This document shows positions 4,779-11,493 of a DNA stretch of 64,000 bases, one piece after another. This DNA comes from Bacteroidota bacterium (lineage in GTDB: Bacteria > Bacteroidota > Bacteroidia > Bacteroidales > JAAUTT01): positions 1-64,000 of the forward strand of contig JAJYAG010000006.1 of NCBI GenBank assembly GCA_021779665.1, in the 5' to 3' direction. Made by a program: the position numbers and the translations under genes. Within the stretch, counting starts at the first letter, position 1; each line of letters starts with the position of its first letter. The notes beneath the pieces are model-generated. The model was not told the DNA's origin. It ran no database searches and saw nothing but the letters and a program-made list of their open reading frames with translations.

Positions 4779-5852
4779 TTAATCATAGTGACTTACTGAA
4801 GCTAAAAGCTGATCCGCAAACTTATAAATATCATCTAAACAAGATATTTCTAGCTTGGTTTCATTCTTTTCAGGATCAAAAACGCCCAGGTACTTCTTTC
4901 CTCCATTAAACCACAATCTGGCTAATGGTTTGCGATTATTATCATCCAGCAGCACACCAAAATAGGATTTGGTGTCCCTGCCAATAATCCGTGATACTTG
5001 AAATTTCTGTCGAAGAACAGACTTGATAATTAAAAAACCTTCCTGCTCTTCTGATGTAGTTTCTATGCCATCTGGTTTTACATCTTGTCCATTCTGAAGA
5101 GCTTCAGAAACTTTGGCTGCCTCCATCTGATCAGCAGCTTTTTCCTGATTCAATGCCGTCTTCAAGCGTTCACTGATGATATCGGAAATTAAAATGTTAA
5201 TTGATTTTTTAACTATTTCAGTAAATTGAGTCATAACACTTTCAGTAGCTCTACCATCGTAAACCTGACTAACGAAAAACTTAACAAAACCAGGCGTGGG
5301 AGATTTAAATTCTGAACTCAAAATCTTTTTAATTGAATTTGAATATTTAAGTTCACTTGCCGTATTTACGATATTGTCAATGTCAAAATATGATTTGTGG
5401 AATTTTTGAACCTCGACGAGTTCAGTATCCTTAACTTCAGTGATATTAAATTCAAGAAATGGATTTTCATCCATTTTATTCTTTTCAACTAAATCAGTAT
5501 AAAAACGATAAATTAAACCATTGGTCAATAACCCGAATTTAGCTTTAGTTGTATGAAAATACCTAAAGAGCTGGGAATTATGGGGATCCAAACTTTCTTT
5601 ATGATGCTTACATTCAATCAGAATAATAGGATTACCATCTTTCATTATTGCATAATCTACCTTTTCTCCTTTTTTAATACCAATATCCGCAATAAATTCC
5701 GGGTTCACTTCAAAAGGATTAAAAACATCGTAACCTAATATTTGAATAAAAGGCATAATTAAAGAAGTTTTGGTGGCTTCTTCCGTGTTAATCTGAGGAA
5801 GCATTTTTTCAACTTTGGCTGCTAATTGCTGAATTTGGTCTTTAAAATCCAT
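4779..5852 (-). CDS. orphan HsdR-N-like PD-(D/E)XK nuclease
   Basis: 357 residues. The N-terminal 120 residues match the type I restriction enzyme R subunit N-terminal domain as found in free-standing proteins (COG4748-like): IMPFIQILGYDVFNPFEV, then VDYAIM and LIECKHH. The likely catalytic residues are E48, D66, E80 and K82 (ECK), with Gln94 in the following helix. The middle (about 125-230) is helical, and the C-terminal 100 residues form a separate domain of unknown role. There is no helicase domain and no hsdM or hsdS gene nearby, so it is not a type I system. It is flanked by non-related genes and is AT-rich, suggesting transfer. A role in degrading foreign DNA is inference. Confidence 0.72.
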   Translation of the reverse strand: MDFKDQIQQLAAKVEKMLPQINTEEATKTSLIMPFIQILGYDVFNPFEVNPEFIADIGIKKGEKVDYAIMKDGNPIILIECKHHKESLDPHNSQLFRYFHTTKAKFGLLTNGLIYRFYTDLVEKNKMDENPFLEFNITEVKDTELVEVQKFHKSYFDIDNIVNTASELKYSNSIKKILSSEFKSPTPGFVKFFVSQVYDGRATESVMTQFTEIVKKSINILISDIISERLKTALNQEKAADQMEAAKVSEALQNGQDVKPDGIETTSEEQEGFLIIKSVLRQKFQVSRIIGRDTKSYFGVLLDDNNRKPLARLWFNGGKKYLGVFDPEKNETKLEISCLDDIYKFADQLLASVSHYD

Positions 5853-6153: not shown

Positions 6154-7287
6154 TTACTTCTTCACTCCAAACTTATAGGTTGTAAGCTGGTAATATTTTT
6201 CACCCGGGCGTAAAACCACAGTCGGGAAATTTGGCTGATTGGGCGAATTGGGATAATGCTGTGCTTCGAGGCAGAAACCCCAGTTCTTGTTATAAACGGC
6301 ATTGTTATGTCCGGTAAGTGTTCCGTCGAGGAAGTTGCCGGTATAGAACTGAACGCCTGGTTCGGTTGAATACATCTCAAGAACACGACCTGAAGTGGTA
6401 TCGGTTACTTCGGCAACCTTGCCATAAGTTCCTTTGGCTTTGGATAAAACAAAGTTATGATCGTAACCGCCAGTCACCTGGGCTATACGTTCACCAACGG
6501 TATGAGGGTTTTTGAAATCGAATGCGGTGCCGGCAAGACTTTCAATTTTACCTGTTGGTATAAGTTCGGCGTTAACCGGAGTAATGGAATCAGCATAGAT
6601 CACAACATTGTGATTCAGGATACTTTCTTTGCCGCCACTAAGGTTGAAATAGCTGTGGTTGGTAAGGTTGATCACAGTGGCTTTATCAGTTTCGGCACTG
6701 TAATATATTTTGAGTTCATTCTTATCGTTCAGCACATAAGTAACAGTCGATTTGAGCGTTCCGGGAAAGCCTTCTTCCATATCGGCACTGGTATAAGTAA
6801 GCTGCAGGGCAACACTGTCCTTTCCGGGAACTTCAGTAGCTTCCCAGATTTTCTTATCGAAGCCAACCAGACCCCCATGAAGGGTATTCTTTCCGTCGTT
6901 GGCAGCCAGCTTAAATTCTTTACCTTCTAGTTTGAATTTAGCTCCGCCAATACGGTTGGCATAACGGCCAACCAAAGCGCCGAAGAATGGATGTTTGGCA
7001 GTGTAACCGCCGATGCTGTCGAAACCAAGTACAATGTTTGCAAGGCTGTCATTTTTGTCTTTTGCATTGATGGTAGTTATTATACCACCATAATTGGTGA
7101 TTTTAACGGTAAGGCCATTTTTATTTTTCAGGGCGTAGAGAGATACATCCTGGTCGCCGGCTTTACCCCAGCTTTCTTTGGTGATGGAGAGACTATCGGG
7201 TTTTTGTTCTGTTGCTTCCTGTTTCCCGCTTTTGCAGGAGGTGAAGCCAATTAAAGCAATAATGAAAAGGGTGATCAGTTTGTTCAT
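6154..7287 (-). CDS. galM: aldose 1-epimerase (galactose mutarotase), lipoprotein
   Basis: 377 residues from the ATG at 7287; the longer open frame upstream codes for an unlikely leader. This start gives a lipoprotein signal, MNKLITLFIIALIGFTSC, so the enzyme is probably anchored in the envelope, as is common for Bacteroidota mutarotases. Family motifs include NRIGGAKF, NDGKNTLHGG, LTNHSYFNLSG with the catalytic histidine, YDHNFVL, and GFCLEAQHYPNSPNQPNFP with the catalytic glutamate. It interconverts alpha and beta anomers of galactose or glucose. The gene stands alone between the orphan nuclease and the protease/ATPase pair, with its own terminator. Confidence 0.93.
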   Translation of the reverse strand: MNKLITLFIIALIGFTSCKSGKQEATEQKPDSLSITKESWGKAGDQDVSLYALKNKNGLTVKITNYGGIITTINAKDKNDSLANIVLGFDSIGGYTAKHPFFGALVGRYANRIGGAKFKLEGKEFKLAANDGKNTLHGGLVGFDKKIWEATEVPGKDSVALQLTYTSADMEEGFPGTLKSTVTYVLNDKNELKIYYSAETDKATVINLTNHSYFNLSGGKESILNHNVVIYADSITPVNAELIPTGKIESLAGTAFDFKNPHTVGERIAQVTGGYDHNFVLSKAKGTYGKVAEVTDTTSGRVLEMYSTEPGVQFYTGNFLDGTLTGHNNAVYNKNWGFCLEAQHYPNSPNQPNFPTVVLRPGEKYYQLTTYKFGVKK

Positions 7288-7382
7288 ATAAATCGGGTTT
7301 AGATTAAAAAAATAAAGGTATAAAAAACAATTATTGAATTGGGTGCATAATGAATAAAAAGGGAATAGTTTTGTCTCAGGCA

Positions 7383-7461
7383 AGTCCACAGTCCTCAGAC
7401 GACAGCCAATACAAACTTTGAAAAACCGGGATCATTGATCAAAGCTTTATTGGCTGTGGAC
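7383..7461. repeat. nested inverted repeat in the galM/protease intergenic region
   Basis: ACAGCCAATACAAACTTTGA (7402-7421) pairs imperfectly with TCAAAGCTTTATTGGCTGT (7439-7457). An outer pair, AGTCCACAG (7383-7391) and CTGTGGACT (7453-7461), overlaps the right arm so that two alternative stems are possible. The words AGTCCA(C/T)AG, GTCCTCAG and ACAGCCAAT recur at 50246-50334, and AGTCTGTGGACT-like sequence recurs near 49119-49134, so this is probably one copy of a dispersed intergenic element. Confidence 0.6.
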
Positions 7462-7607
7462 TGATGTCCTCAAATTAGCTACAGGGATCAGGAGGGTGCT
7501 AACTGGGAGTCTTTCCTTTAAGCATTTAAAAGAAAATAAAAATTTTACAGGTTAATTCTCTATATTAGCACTAACAAATCTTCTATCGCTAATTAAACCA
7601 GGAAAAT

Positions 7608-10175
7608 ATGCCCGAGAAAGAGCATTTATTACTACTTAACAAAATAGAAACCAAAACCATTTTCAAAATCAACAGGGGTAGAGATAATGACCAAGCTGAA
7701 GAAGAAGAAAAAGTTCCAGAAAATTACCATAACCTGAAAGAAAGATTACGATCTAACCATCGCCTGTTTATTAGGGAAAGAATTTACAGAAGAGAGCAAC
7801 GATCGCTTCAAGTGCCATTTCATATCGAGTATCTTAAATTAAACTTTTTTCAGGTTATTGATGACCAATGTCAAAATTACTTCAGATCACAGTACGGTTT
7901 ATTCCCAGTTTCTTTTGAAAACCTTAACCAAACGGTATTTTACTCCATTATTGAGGAAGGACTTTTCAATAATTTTATAACAGACCTGCAAAAATTTTAT
8001 AATAGCCCTGACAATATAAGTCCTCATATGACAAGCTATTCCCGATTGATTAACATTGAATCGTTTGAATTTCTTACTTCAGAAAGAATTAGGAATAACA
8101 ACATTGATGGTACTCTGCATTTTGAATTACTTGATGAGGATGGATCTGCGCAGAAATATTATCAAATTTTTAATGCGCTAAGGACCTACCTGTCTGTCAA
8201 TGCATTAGACTACAACTTTAGATTGGAAGACAAACTTGTTGAAATTAAAAATATTTCAAGAGATGTATTATCGGAAATACTTGACAATTTCGACATTATA
8301 AAGAGCACTACCAGTAATTTTCCTTCCCGCAGAGCTCCTGGGTTATACAATGAAGAAAGAAGATTACCTGTCTTCTCCTTTGAACCAGATTTAAATACAC
8401 CAATTATAGGGATAATTGACACTGGTATACACAGAGGCGGATTACTCCGTCCTATTGTTGTTGATTCAGATTTGGATATTGCAAATCATACCCCAATGTG
8501 CTTTTTTGACGACAATGGCCATGGCACCCAAATGGCATTTCTGGCAGCATTTGGTGAAGATTTTTACACGAATTCGAATCATATTAATACCGCCAAGGTG
8601 CTTCCCATAAAAATAATGAATAACGGAGAAGACAATTACAGTTTGTTTGATTTAGAAAATGCAATTCGCAAGGCAAATGCCAGAGGTGTTAAAATATTTA
8701 ATCTCTCAGTAAATTCAAAATTTAACAAATTATATAATGAAAAATACTCCAGCTACGCAATTATTCTTGATAAATTAGCATACGAACTTGACATTCTTAT
8801 TTTTATATCGACAGGTAATCTCAATTATGAAGACCTTCAAACAATGTCTCAGTATGATATTTTTAACTATCCTAATCATTTTTTCAATCCAAATAACCCG
8901 GAATTTAATGAATTCGGGTATGCTTGTTCATTAACTAACATAAAACCTCCAGCTGACTCCCTGAACAATGCTGTTGTTGGTGCTATAGCAGATAATTTTA
9001 TAACAGCAACAGATTTGACCCCAGATGGTACCCAAGTAGCCTTTTATTCATTAAAATGGCACTTGGACTATACACAGACCATGAATAATGCAACCATAAA
9101 AAAGAACCAATCCAACCTTTCACTCTTTAAACCTGATGTGGTATGTCCGGGAGGAGATGCTCTAAATGTTGGAGCAGGATTAGAAGTACTCTCCAATAAA
9201 CCGGATAACCGGTTTGTTTCTACCTATGGAACCAGTAATGCAGCCCCTTTATGTGCCAACATTGCAGCTCGGATCATTCATAAATATCCTCAGTTAAGTA
9301 TGCAAAGTGTAAAGGCCTTAATCATTAATTCTGCGGAAAAGCAAAAGCAAATTCAGGGATTTGAGGACCTACTATTTTCATTAAAACAACGATTCGCTAG
9401 GAATATTATAAATAAAGAATTTATATCATTAGACGAATTAACTGTTAAAGAAAAAACTAAGTTGAGTCGGGTCTTTAGTGAAAAAAGAATTTCAAATATA
9501 TTACAAGGGCATGGCCGTCCTAATGTTTACAAGGCATTGAACTCAAATGACAACCTTGTAACATTTGTTATAGAAGAAACCATTACTCCGGGTACCCACA
9601 TCGCTTTGAAACTTGATATCCCTGATTATCTCAACAGCAACACTAGCCGAAAATCATCACTCTTTAAAATTCGTGCAACATTGTGTTATAAATTTAATCC
9701 ATTACCGAATAACCATTTGGCCTATTGTCCAGTTCATATTTCGTTTGCAATTAAAAAGAACATTGATAAAAGTATTCAAACATCTTTAGATGTCTTAAGT
9801 GACCATGAAAATCCACGAATTGAAGATGGTAATTTTAAAGGCGGGTTAACATGGTCTGACGATTTTTTCCCAATTAATAAAAAGCCGTTTACGAATTGTC
9901 AAACAATTGGTTTTAATCTATCTCTCAACGACTTGGAACGCATTGAGAATAGTCTTGCAGTGATTGTTAGGGCTCATTGTAAACAAAATATTGATCCGGC
10001 ACTGGTTGAATCTTTAAAATCTACAGCCCATCCATTTTCGCTGGCAATAAGTGTAGAAGAAGTTCCTTATCAAAAAGAACAGACGGGACAACTGTACGAA
10101 AATATCAAGCTTTGTAATGATGTTGATTTATTAGCTGCATTGGAACAGGAAATAGATTTGGAACTGAACAATTAA
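7608..10175 (+). CDS. subtilisin-like serine protease (S8), IetS-like
   Basis: 855 residues, without a signal peptide, so probably cytoplasmic. The catalytic tetrad is complete: D271 in IIGIIDTGIH, H305 in NGHGTQMAF, oxyanion N404 in STGNLNY, and S543 in YGTSNAAPLCANIA. Residues 1-260 and about 620-855 are domains I do not recognise; the N-terminal part is charged and helical. The gene ends 4 bases from the end of a convergent AAA ATPase gene. An S8 protease encoded with an AAA ATPase is the composition of IetAS, first described as a Ti-plasmid stability module and later as an anti-phage system. The pairing is therefore suggestive of defence, but here the genes face each other rather than forming an operon. 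Base composition is AT-rich relative to housekeeping genes in the window. Confidence 0.82.
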   Translation: MPEKEHLLLLNKIETKTIFKINRGRDNDQAEEEEKVPENYHNLKERLRSNHRLFIRERIYRREQRSLQVPFHIEYLKLNFFQVIDDQCQNYFRSQYGLFPVSFENLNQTVFYSIIEEGLFNNFITDLQKFYNSPDNISPHMTSYSRLINIESFEFLTSERIRNNNIDGTLHFELLDEDGSAQKYYQIFNALRTYLSVNALDYNFRLEDKLVEIKNISRDVLSEILDNFDIIKSTTSNFPSRRAPGLYNEERRLPVFSFEPDLNTPIIGIIDTGIHRGGLLRPIVVDSDLDIANHTPMCFFDDNGHGTQMAFLAAFGEDFYTNSNHINTAKVLPIKIMNNGEDNYSLFDLENAIRKANARGVKIFNLSVNSKFNKLYNEKYSSYAIILDKLAYELDILIFISTGNLNYEDLQTMSQYDIFNYPNHFFNPNNPEFNEFGYACSLTNIKPPADSLNNAVVGAIADNFITATDLTPDGTQVAFYSLKWHLDYTQTMNNATIKKNQSNLSLFKPDVVCPGGDALNVGAGLEVLSNKPDNRFVSTYGTSNAAPLCANIAARIIHKYPQLSMQSVKALIINSAEKQKQIQGFEDLLFSLKQRFARNIINKEFISLDELTVKEKTKLSRVFSEKRISNILQGHGRPNVYKALNSNDNLVTFVIEETITPGTHIALKLDIPDYLNSNTSRKSSLFKIRATLCYKFNPLPNNHLAYCPVHISFAIKKNIDKSIQTSLDVLSDHENPRIEDGNFKGGLTWSDDFFPINKKPFTNCQTIGFNLSLNDLERIENSLAVIVRAHCKQNIDPALVESLKSTAHPFSLAISVEEVPYQKEQTGQLYENIKLCNDVDLLAALEQEIDLELNN

Positions 10176-10179
10176 TATT

Positions 10180-11187
10180 TTACTTCTTTTCCAAGAGCAG
10201 CAGTTTTTTCCAGATATCAACATCGATATACAGCTTTTTATTTGAAGGTAAGGTGTTAAACAGGCCTCGCTTGATGGCTGTAATTAACGTTTTTTGGATA
10301 AGGTAAAAAGAAAGGCCACGTGAAAGGTTAATAATTTCACTTAAATCGTTTTCATTTTTAATTTTAAATGGGCTCTTGGACAATGTCTTTTGAATGAGCT
10401 CTTTAACTTGAATTTCGTTGGGTAGTCCCAAATTAATTTTAGAATCGAATCGACGTATCAAAGCATCGTCGATCATATCAACCTGATTAGTTGCAGCGAT
10501 AAGTATATTGTCCTGCGGCAAATAATCGAACAGTTGCAGGATTGTATTAACCACCCTTTTCATTTCACCATGATCCTGGCTATAGTCTCTGATTTTGCCT
10601 AACGAATCGAATTCATCCATAAAGATGATGCAGTTTTCAGTTGCAGCATGACGAAAGATCCGGGCAAGGTTTTTACTGGTTTCGCCCAGCTTTGAAGAAA
10701 CAATGGCCCCCATATTAATTACGATCATCATCTTCTCAAGCTCACCAGCCATAACATAAGAGGCCAACGTTTTTCCGCATCCTGAAGGCCCATAAAACAA
10801 TAATTTATTGGCAACAGGCAACTCATAATTTTGGAGAACCTGAATTCCCTTGTGCTCTTTAACAAAATACTCCAAATCTTCCTTTACTTCGACTGAACAA
10901 ATCAGATTTTCGAAAGTATAATCCGAGGTAATTTTTTCAATAATCAATTCGTTGAGGGAGAGATCTTCTTCCCGTAAAAGGTATTTTTGTGACCCTACTT
11001 TTGCCAGCCCTTTGGTTTGCTGGGTTTTTAAACCCTCTTTAAGAATAGACTGAAGATGAAGGGCAAAATTGATCTTCTTATTTTTACGGGAATACTCAAT
11101 CAACTCATTTAAGGCATGCAACAGCTTTTCCTGGTCGTTTTCAAGACCGTATTTAGCAATATCTTTAATATAATCGAACTGGCTCAT
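10180..11187 (-). CDS. AAA ATPase partner of the S8 protease, IetA-like
   Basis: 335 residues. An N-terminal helical region (1-95) precedes a single AAA module: Walker A GPSGCGKT (133-140), Walker B IIFMDEFD (187-194, D191 and E192), sensor-1 asparagine N234 in IAATNQVD, and RR at 245-246 in DALIRRFD as arginine-finger candidates. The core resembles the spastin/FtsH/Cdc48 type of AAA protein rather than Lon or ClpX. No transmembrane segment or protease domain is present, so proteolysis would have to come from a partner, most likely the S8 protein encoded tail-to-tail with it. The promoter must lie in 11188-11493. Function as regulator or unfoldase for the protease is inference from the pairing. 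Confidence 0.85.
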   Translation of the reverse strand: MSQFDYIKDIAKYGLENDQEKLLHALNELIEYSRKNKKINFALHLQSILKEGLKTQQTKGLAKVGSQKYLLREEDLSLNELIIEKITSDYTFENLICSVEVKEDLEYFVKEHKGIQVLQNYELPVANKLLFYGPSGCGKTLASYVMAGELEKMMIVINMGAIVSSKLGETSKNLARIFRHAATENCIIFMDEFDSLGKIRDYSQDHGEMKRVVNTILQLFDYLPQDNILIAATNQVDMIDDALIRRFDSKINLGLPNEIQVKELIQKTLSKSPFKIKNENDLSEIINLSRGLSFYLIQKTLITAIKRGLFNTLPSNKKLYIDVDIWKKLLLLEKK

Positions 11188-11493
11188 ACCTAAAAAATGT
11201 TGTACAAATTAAAACATTTTTCCAATGAATAAGTTAAAATTTTGAGGTAAGTCGATGTAAAACTTTGGCATGGGCGTGAGTAAGAAGAAGGTTTTTTGAA
11301 TAATGCAGCAGCTATTTACCACCTCCCCCCGCCCTCTCGGAGAGGGAATACCAAATTATCGGCCTTTAGAGCACAAATTAAAACTCAGCTTAGATATTGC
11401 AATTGCAAGCGTTACATACTGATGACTATCTACAGGGAGCATATCGCCATATTTGAGTTAGCTAAACACCAGTTTCAAAGCAATTAATATTAT
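11188..11493. other. intergenic stretch with small GC-rich hairpin
   Basis: 306 bases without a credible gene. It holds the AAA-gene upstream region and the 3' flank of the GH2 gene. A hairpin CCCTCT-CGG-AGAGGG (11332-11346) preceded by a run of C stands out in the AT-rich surroundings and resembles the short palindromic intergenic repeats common in Bacteroidota. No clear promoter was assigned. Confidence 0.45.

Follow-up and report, generated by a model that had tools for sequence, protein, structure and literature searches.

A subtilisin-like protease gene and an AAA ATPase gene that end tail to tail raise the question of how two such genes, if they encode a toxin and its antitoxin, could keep their products in balance. 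In type II toxin-antitoxin systems the two genes usually form an operon that begins with the antitoxin gene, and their common transcript is taken to account for the balance. The pair considered here lies in a window of 64,000 nucleotides, which is the whole stretch analyzed (positions 1 to 64,000 of contig JAJYAG010000006.1, assembly GCA_021779665.1, from a bacterium of the Bacteroidales). The ietS-like gene (7608..10175, plus strand) encodes an S8 subtilase of 855 aa, the predicted toxin, and the ietA-like gene (10180..11187, minus strand) encodes an ATPase of 335 aa with one AAA module, the predicted antitoxin; the two convergent stop codons are separated by 4 bp (10176..10179). A family that keeps this layout throughout a phylum, its stop codons abutting or overlapping, must balance toxin and antitoxin by another route, and its convergent tails make the role of the overlap in that balance directly testable.

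By comparing the pair with its homologues, we find that it belongs to a convergent, Bacteroidota-wide group of IetAS-like pairs, which is a new form of a known system type. In the reading that we prefer, with a probability of roughly 0.6, it is a protease-toxin/ATPase-antitoxin module, probably directed against phages, in which each gene has its own promoter and the tail-to-tail transcripts would add an antisense second brake on the protease.

Conservation of the convergent pair in Bacteroidota

Among 395 genomes drawn from the class, seven (the genome of the window included) encode IetS and the same seven encode a full-length IetA, the two genes being adjacent and convergent in all seven. In a draw of 385 genomes from the phylum, all four genomes with IetS, one of them new, have an adjacent convergent IetA. 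At strict cut-offs the homologues of the two proteins are thus found together rather than apart, since all eight sampled IetS genomes carry an adjacent IetA and vice versa. A profile of seven IetA proteins, applied to genome contigs, led to 80 loci in named Bacteroidota genomes, which come from no fewer than five classes and 13 families; IetS adjoins IetA in 78 of them, convergently in 78 of 78, and a single-sequence IetS search of the same contigs gave no match. The convergent pair is also found on two viral contigs (L119 and L148). With two duplicates dropped, the total is 86 distinct convergent loci, a recurrence that places the pair beyond chance, and no locus of the clade with both genes has them in another order. 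The orientation, which an earlier note on this DNA had called unusual, differs indeed from that of the described operon, but it is no local oddity, being the rule of the whole Bacteroidota clade.

The two proteins have diverged at different rates. Their pairwise identities covary (Mantel r 0.54 for 80 pairs, exceeded in 0 of 999 permutations), and the median identity among homologues is 33% for IetS and 64% for IetA. In two sets of close relatives (L052/L056 and L088/L094) the IetA proteins are 95-97% identical and their IetS partners 73-74%, so that divergence is far quicker in the protease than in the ATPase.

The pair occurs in ~1-2% of the sampled Bacteroidota genomes, and neither ietS nor ietA is present in four genomes of the same genus as that of the window. 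A housekeeping role as a regulated protease outside genetic conflict would agree with the intact enzymes and with a contig on which no mobile element is evident around the window copy; we reject it as highly improbable because the occurrence is patchy, and the pair is also mobile and fast-evolving. This mobility suits another explanation, namely that the module is an addiction system of mobile elements, whose main pay-off is the stable upkeep of integrated elements rather than phage defense. Besides the scattered occurrence, including the absence from the four same-genus genomes, it is favored by nearly identical pairs in different families (IetS is 95% identical between genomes G224 and G009), by integrase, relaxase-like or phage genes beside some copies, and by the original role ascribed to IetAS, which was first tied to Ti plasmid stability (Yamamoto 2009, as cited in PMC8562856). 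However, these facts are also compatible with defense, and several copies adjoin type I restriction-modification, type II methyltransferase or DRT-type reverse transcriptase genes, as seen in a flank scan that had no control set and from which no enrichment is claimed. We regard pure addiction as a possible but lesser alternative.

Kinship to IetAS and the change of gene layout

The window proteins match Peptidase_S8 (7.5e-32) and AAA (1.5e-30) in Pfam. More specifically, the ATPase matches the PADLOC model of IetA at 1.2e-71 over residues 4-312, compared with only 3e-16 for TRIP13, and the protease matches the IetS model at 3.1e-34, well above other subtilase models. The kinship to IetAS proposed in the earlier note is therefore borne out beyond general S8 and AAA similarity. 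In contrast, the NCBIfam equivalog models of IetAS (NF042959 and NF042956, named IteA/IteS) give 198.9 bits for the ATPase and 78.6 bits for the protease, below the respective cut-offs of 510 bits (IteA) and 900 bits (IteS), which makes the window proteins relatives rather than equivalogs of the characterized IetA and IetS; the identity between the window IetS and that of Agrobacterium plasmids is ~24%.

The layout of the described operon, to which the same note refers, is shared by all 21 other IetAS loci examined, from Proteobacteria, Cyanobacteria, viral contigs and Bacteroidia, which have the order ietA-ietS on one strand. They comprise plasmid pairs of Rhizobium, Klebsiella, Agrobacterium (Ti plasmid), Leptolyngbya and Burkholderia, five viral contigs, and eleven Bacteroidia loci found with the PADLOC IetA model (L188-L193, L195-L199). 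The latter share class or phylum and gene content with the convergent clade, and differ from it in having both genes on the same strand, close or slightly overlapping, and in their position at the opposite side of the tree. Both layouts coexist in genome G224, which has one convergent and two operonic pairs.

In trees that were built quickly and have long operonic branches, every operonic locus falls on one side of a branch in the IetA tree (SH-aLRT 99), and a branch with support of 100 separates the two layouts in the IetS tree. Judged from these sequences, the convergent pairs form a distinct sister clade of IetAS that is spread over the phylum, and a single change of layout, in either direction, would account for both trees. 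The clade shares with IetAS, a gene pair associated with plasmid stability and phage resistance and known from pTiC58, PADLOC and NCBIfam, the S8 protease and one-module AAA ATPase encoded by adjacent genes, the sequence kinship of both proteins, and a mobile, patchy occurrence. It differs in its convergent genes with separate promoter motifs and in its separate position in both trees. A search of one open-access library of papers returned no report of convergent IetAS. The mechanism of IetAS itself was termed undescribed as late as 2023 (PMC9958689).

The junction of the two genes and their candidate promoters

The distance between the two stop codons falls between -24 and +16 bp in 68 of the 78 distinct intact pairs, and the reading frames overlap in 37 of these 78, by exactly 4 bp in 22. 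For other convergent neighbors at the same loci the same range of distances holds in only 8 of 69 cases (Fisher p 1e-21, a value that is overstated since the pairs share ancestry). Given the median identities of the two proteins, the spacing at the junction has outlived much of the protein sequence. In the 37 pairs with overlapping frames the complete transcripts must overlap, and antisense overlap of the two 3' ends, as suggested in the earlier note, is likely from the junction geometry. At the window junction (10176..10179) we looked for an intrinsic-terminator-like site and saw none. RNA folding at the junctions across the clade shows a small shift (mean z -0.84 vs -0.25) that is driven by a minority of pairs with hairpin terminators.

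Each gene appears to have a promoter of its own. The consensus of the Bacteroidetes-type -7 motif is TAnnTTTG. Within 120 nt upstream it is found in 61% of the loci for ietA, compared with 10% in shuffled sequence, and in 34% for ietS, compared with 8%. This enrichment upstream of both genes supports their separate transcription, with an apparently more canonical promoter for ietA, and agrees with the independent control of the two genes that the earlier note had supposed. The candidate -7 boxes of the window pair, each weak when taken alone, are TATATTAG for ietS (7561..7568, plus strand, 47 nt 5' of the ATG) and TTAATTTG for ietA (11205..11212, minus strand, 25 nt 5' of the ATG). A scan for sigma-70 promoters stayed at chance level; the sigma-70 consensus is uninformative for Bacteroidota.

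Several observations weigh against the proposed antisense brake. The gaps are wider in about ten pairs, which means that overlap is dispensable in some members, and several of these pairs, chiefly from relatives of Sphingobacterium, have a hairpin followed by a T-run over the ietA stop, which is readable as a bidirectional terminator. The window boxes of ietS and ietA each have one mismatch to TAnnTTTG. Finally, only one layout change is seen, so that the persistence of the convergent order may be inheritance. These points lend themselves to another account, in which the module is the same but the tail-to-tail arrangement is a frozen accident: a single inversion in an ancestor, preserved because the two genes travel together, left an overlap without regulatory role. 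One layout change suffices in both trees, deletion pressure together with no need for a terminator could yield the tight spacing, and naturally occurring pairs whose genes lie 89-317 bp apart, as well as one pair with a 1.8-kb insert, keep both reading frames intact. Less easily accommodated are the abutment or overlap in most pairs despite the low IetS identity, against its rarity among other convergent neighbors, and the promoter motifs maintained upstream of both genes. We hold this account to be a tentative alternative, clearly behind the regulated module. An even stronger version of regulation, in which the convergent overlap itself is a promoter-convergence or antisense switch kept across the phylum, and tailed Bacteroidota phages have taken up only the ATPase half as an antitoxin to counter the pair, seems doubtful.

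The 1.8-kb insert (L057) holds an ORF of 526 aa with a reverse transcriptase domain (7181-8761, minus strand) between the ietA and ietS tails; no other pair of intact genes was seen with a large gene inserted between them.

Protein anatomy and asymmetric loss of the two genes

The active sites that the earlier note had read from the sequence are complete. The tetrad D271, H305, N404 and S543 of IetS is invariant in 61 homologues, and the single-module IetA has its Walker A (133-140, GPSGCGKT) and Walker B (187-194, IIFMDEFD) motifs; K139, T140, D191, E192, the sensor N234, R245 and R246 show no or almost no variation among 57 homologues. Both proteins lack an export signal, and no signal peptide or transmembrane helix is seen (maximal 19-aa hydropathy 1.42), in line with the cytoplasmic appearance that the earlier note ascribed to the protease.

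In its predicted model (mean pLDDT 85) IetS consists of an N-terminal region (1-240), the subtilase domain with the tetrad (~255-645) and a C-terminal beta domain (~650-816) as in KP-43; residues 261-816 match KP-43-type subtilases with Z 29. The extra N-terminal region, which is the fastest-diverging part of the protein (median identity 25%), shows a pattern of two beta-alpha-beta-beta-alpha-beta units in the secondary structure of the model. IetA (mean pLDDT 81) is predicted to comprise an N-terminal three-helix bundle (3-57), which is its best-conserved part (70%), a linker and the AAA module (81-335), the latter resembling the protein-remodeling ATPases NVL, PAN, FtsH, Vps4 and p97 (Z ~23-24). 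Its pore loop is SKLGE in nearly all members of the clade and aligns to MWFGE of p97 D2, which puts K166 at the aromatic position. Operonic IetA proteins differ in this loop, which is mostly S-Y/F/L-L/M-G and has mostly Y, F or L at that position.

The two genes are not lost alike. IetA without IetS is found at four loci (L097, L108 and the viral contigs L120 and L121), and at a few more loci IetA is accompanied by an IetS gene that is disrupted or incomplete within the contig. Searches that started from IetS, by contrast, led to no lone IetS, as every locus that they reached has IetA beside it. Since IetA is found alone and IetS never is, the assignment of IetS as the toxin and IetA as the antitoxin fits, with the reservation, which weakens it, that some of the broken IetS copies may be assembly errors.

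These data bear on the opposite assignment of roles, in which IetA is a sensor or activator that detects some product of infection and then activates, or supplies with substrates, a latent IetS, perhaps held by its own N-terminal domains. Partnership of an ATPase with a protease is a common logic, the ~240-residue N-terminal region has a pattern like that of subtilase prodomains (in secondary structure only), and IetS diverges faster than IetA, as expected for a sensor or for a part that faces the target. But the protease of operonic relatives is toxic alone and is relieved by the ATPase (PMC8562856), the occurrence of IetA alone is what an antitoxin would predict, and a pore loop with no aromatic residue disfavors the threading of a substrate. 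We consider an activating IetA unlikely.

The two viral contigs with a lone IetA (L120/L146 and L121/L147; 52.5 and 50.6 kb) belong to tailed phages and carry tape-measure and major-head genes, and IetS is found nowhere on either record. In both, the IetA-like ATPase gene (L146, 9001-9996; L147, 9001-9999; both on the plus strand) lies in a short accessory cassette amid structural genes. The two phage proteins share 85% identity, keep the Walker motifs and are nested within the convergent clade. Possibly they are captured antitoxins that serve in counter-defense, two fragments being thin evidence for it, and this role is testable. The cultured-phage collection gave only weak IetA-like matches (<42% identity) and no IetS.

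At L097 (6001-8150) an intact IetA gene has as its convergent neighbor, 11 bp off, a gene whose 370-aa product is unrelated to IetS and matches no Pfam family, which makes a partner swap replacing IetS possible. A gene for a Fic protein lies upstream, and an ORF resembling a type I restriction-modification specificity subunit downstream.

Proposed mechanism and its precedents

The preferred reading, that of a toxin-antitoxin module with a second brake, draws on the gene content, order and linkage, the residues, junctions, motifs and loss asymmetry described above, and takes the toxicity and its neutralization by analogy from operonic relatives. IetS, a subtilisin-like protease of the cytosol, would harm the cell if left free. 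IetA, presumably hexameric, would bind and remodel IetS by direct contact and so keep it off. Once IetA disappears, is titrated away or runs short of ATP, as might follow from loss of the locus, infection or shut-off of host transcription, the freed IetS would cleave cell proteins, and the cell would be stopped or killed. With each gene transcribed from its own promoter, the transcripts would meet with touching or overlapping 3' ends, and active transcription of ietA could repress ietS through pairing of the antisense transcripts or through collision of polymerases, which would be the second brake. The defense role assigned to the convergent pair in the earlier note is probable by homology.

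For the protein part of this scheme the closest precedent, likened by its published description, is TA132/3 of Mycoplasma mycoides subsp. capri, which shares an AAA ATPase antitoxin and a subtilisin-like protease toxin; the protease is toxic in E. coli and the ATPase neutralizes it (PMC8562856). It differs in lineage and in being an operon, antitoxin first, as confirmed by RNA-seq (PMC8562856). For the regulatory part, facing promoters with 3' overlap control the type I toxin-antitoxin systems fst RNAI/RNAII and bsrG/SR4, and EcoRI is controlled by a promoter-convergence loop (reviewed in PMC3874152). The logic that we propose to be shared is that of facing promoters and overlapping transcripts that restrain a toxin. 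In those systems, however, the antitoxin or regulator is an RNA, whereas convergent IetAS encodes two large proteins and its antisense control is a proposal.

Neighboring genes and related ATPases

Four short IetA-like ATPases of ~240 aa (L037, 5150-5875; L201, L202 and L135) lack the N-terminal bundle and have no IetS. They form a separate Bacteroidota group and were set aside as members of the convergent clade, since the tree places them outside it.

In genome G224 two AbiEi/AbiEii-like ORFs, judged from reading of the sequence, lie just upstream of the convergent pair (L032, 2347-3938). Near the window pair, the sister genome G001 provides a partial empty-site comparison: the epimerase gene that precedes ietS is followed there by other genes, and the opposite flank is on a separate contig. 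A lone gene of the HSDR_N / PD-(D/E)XK type (4779-5852, minus strand, 357 aa) lies 1.7 kb from the IetAS-like pair. In G001 it is absent and its flanking genes, for an acyltransferase and an aldose epimerase, directly adjoin each other, which marks it as a second variable insert.

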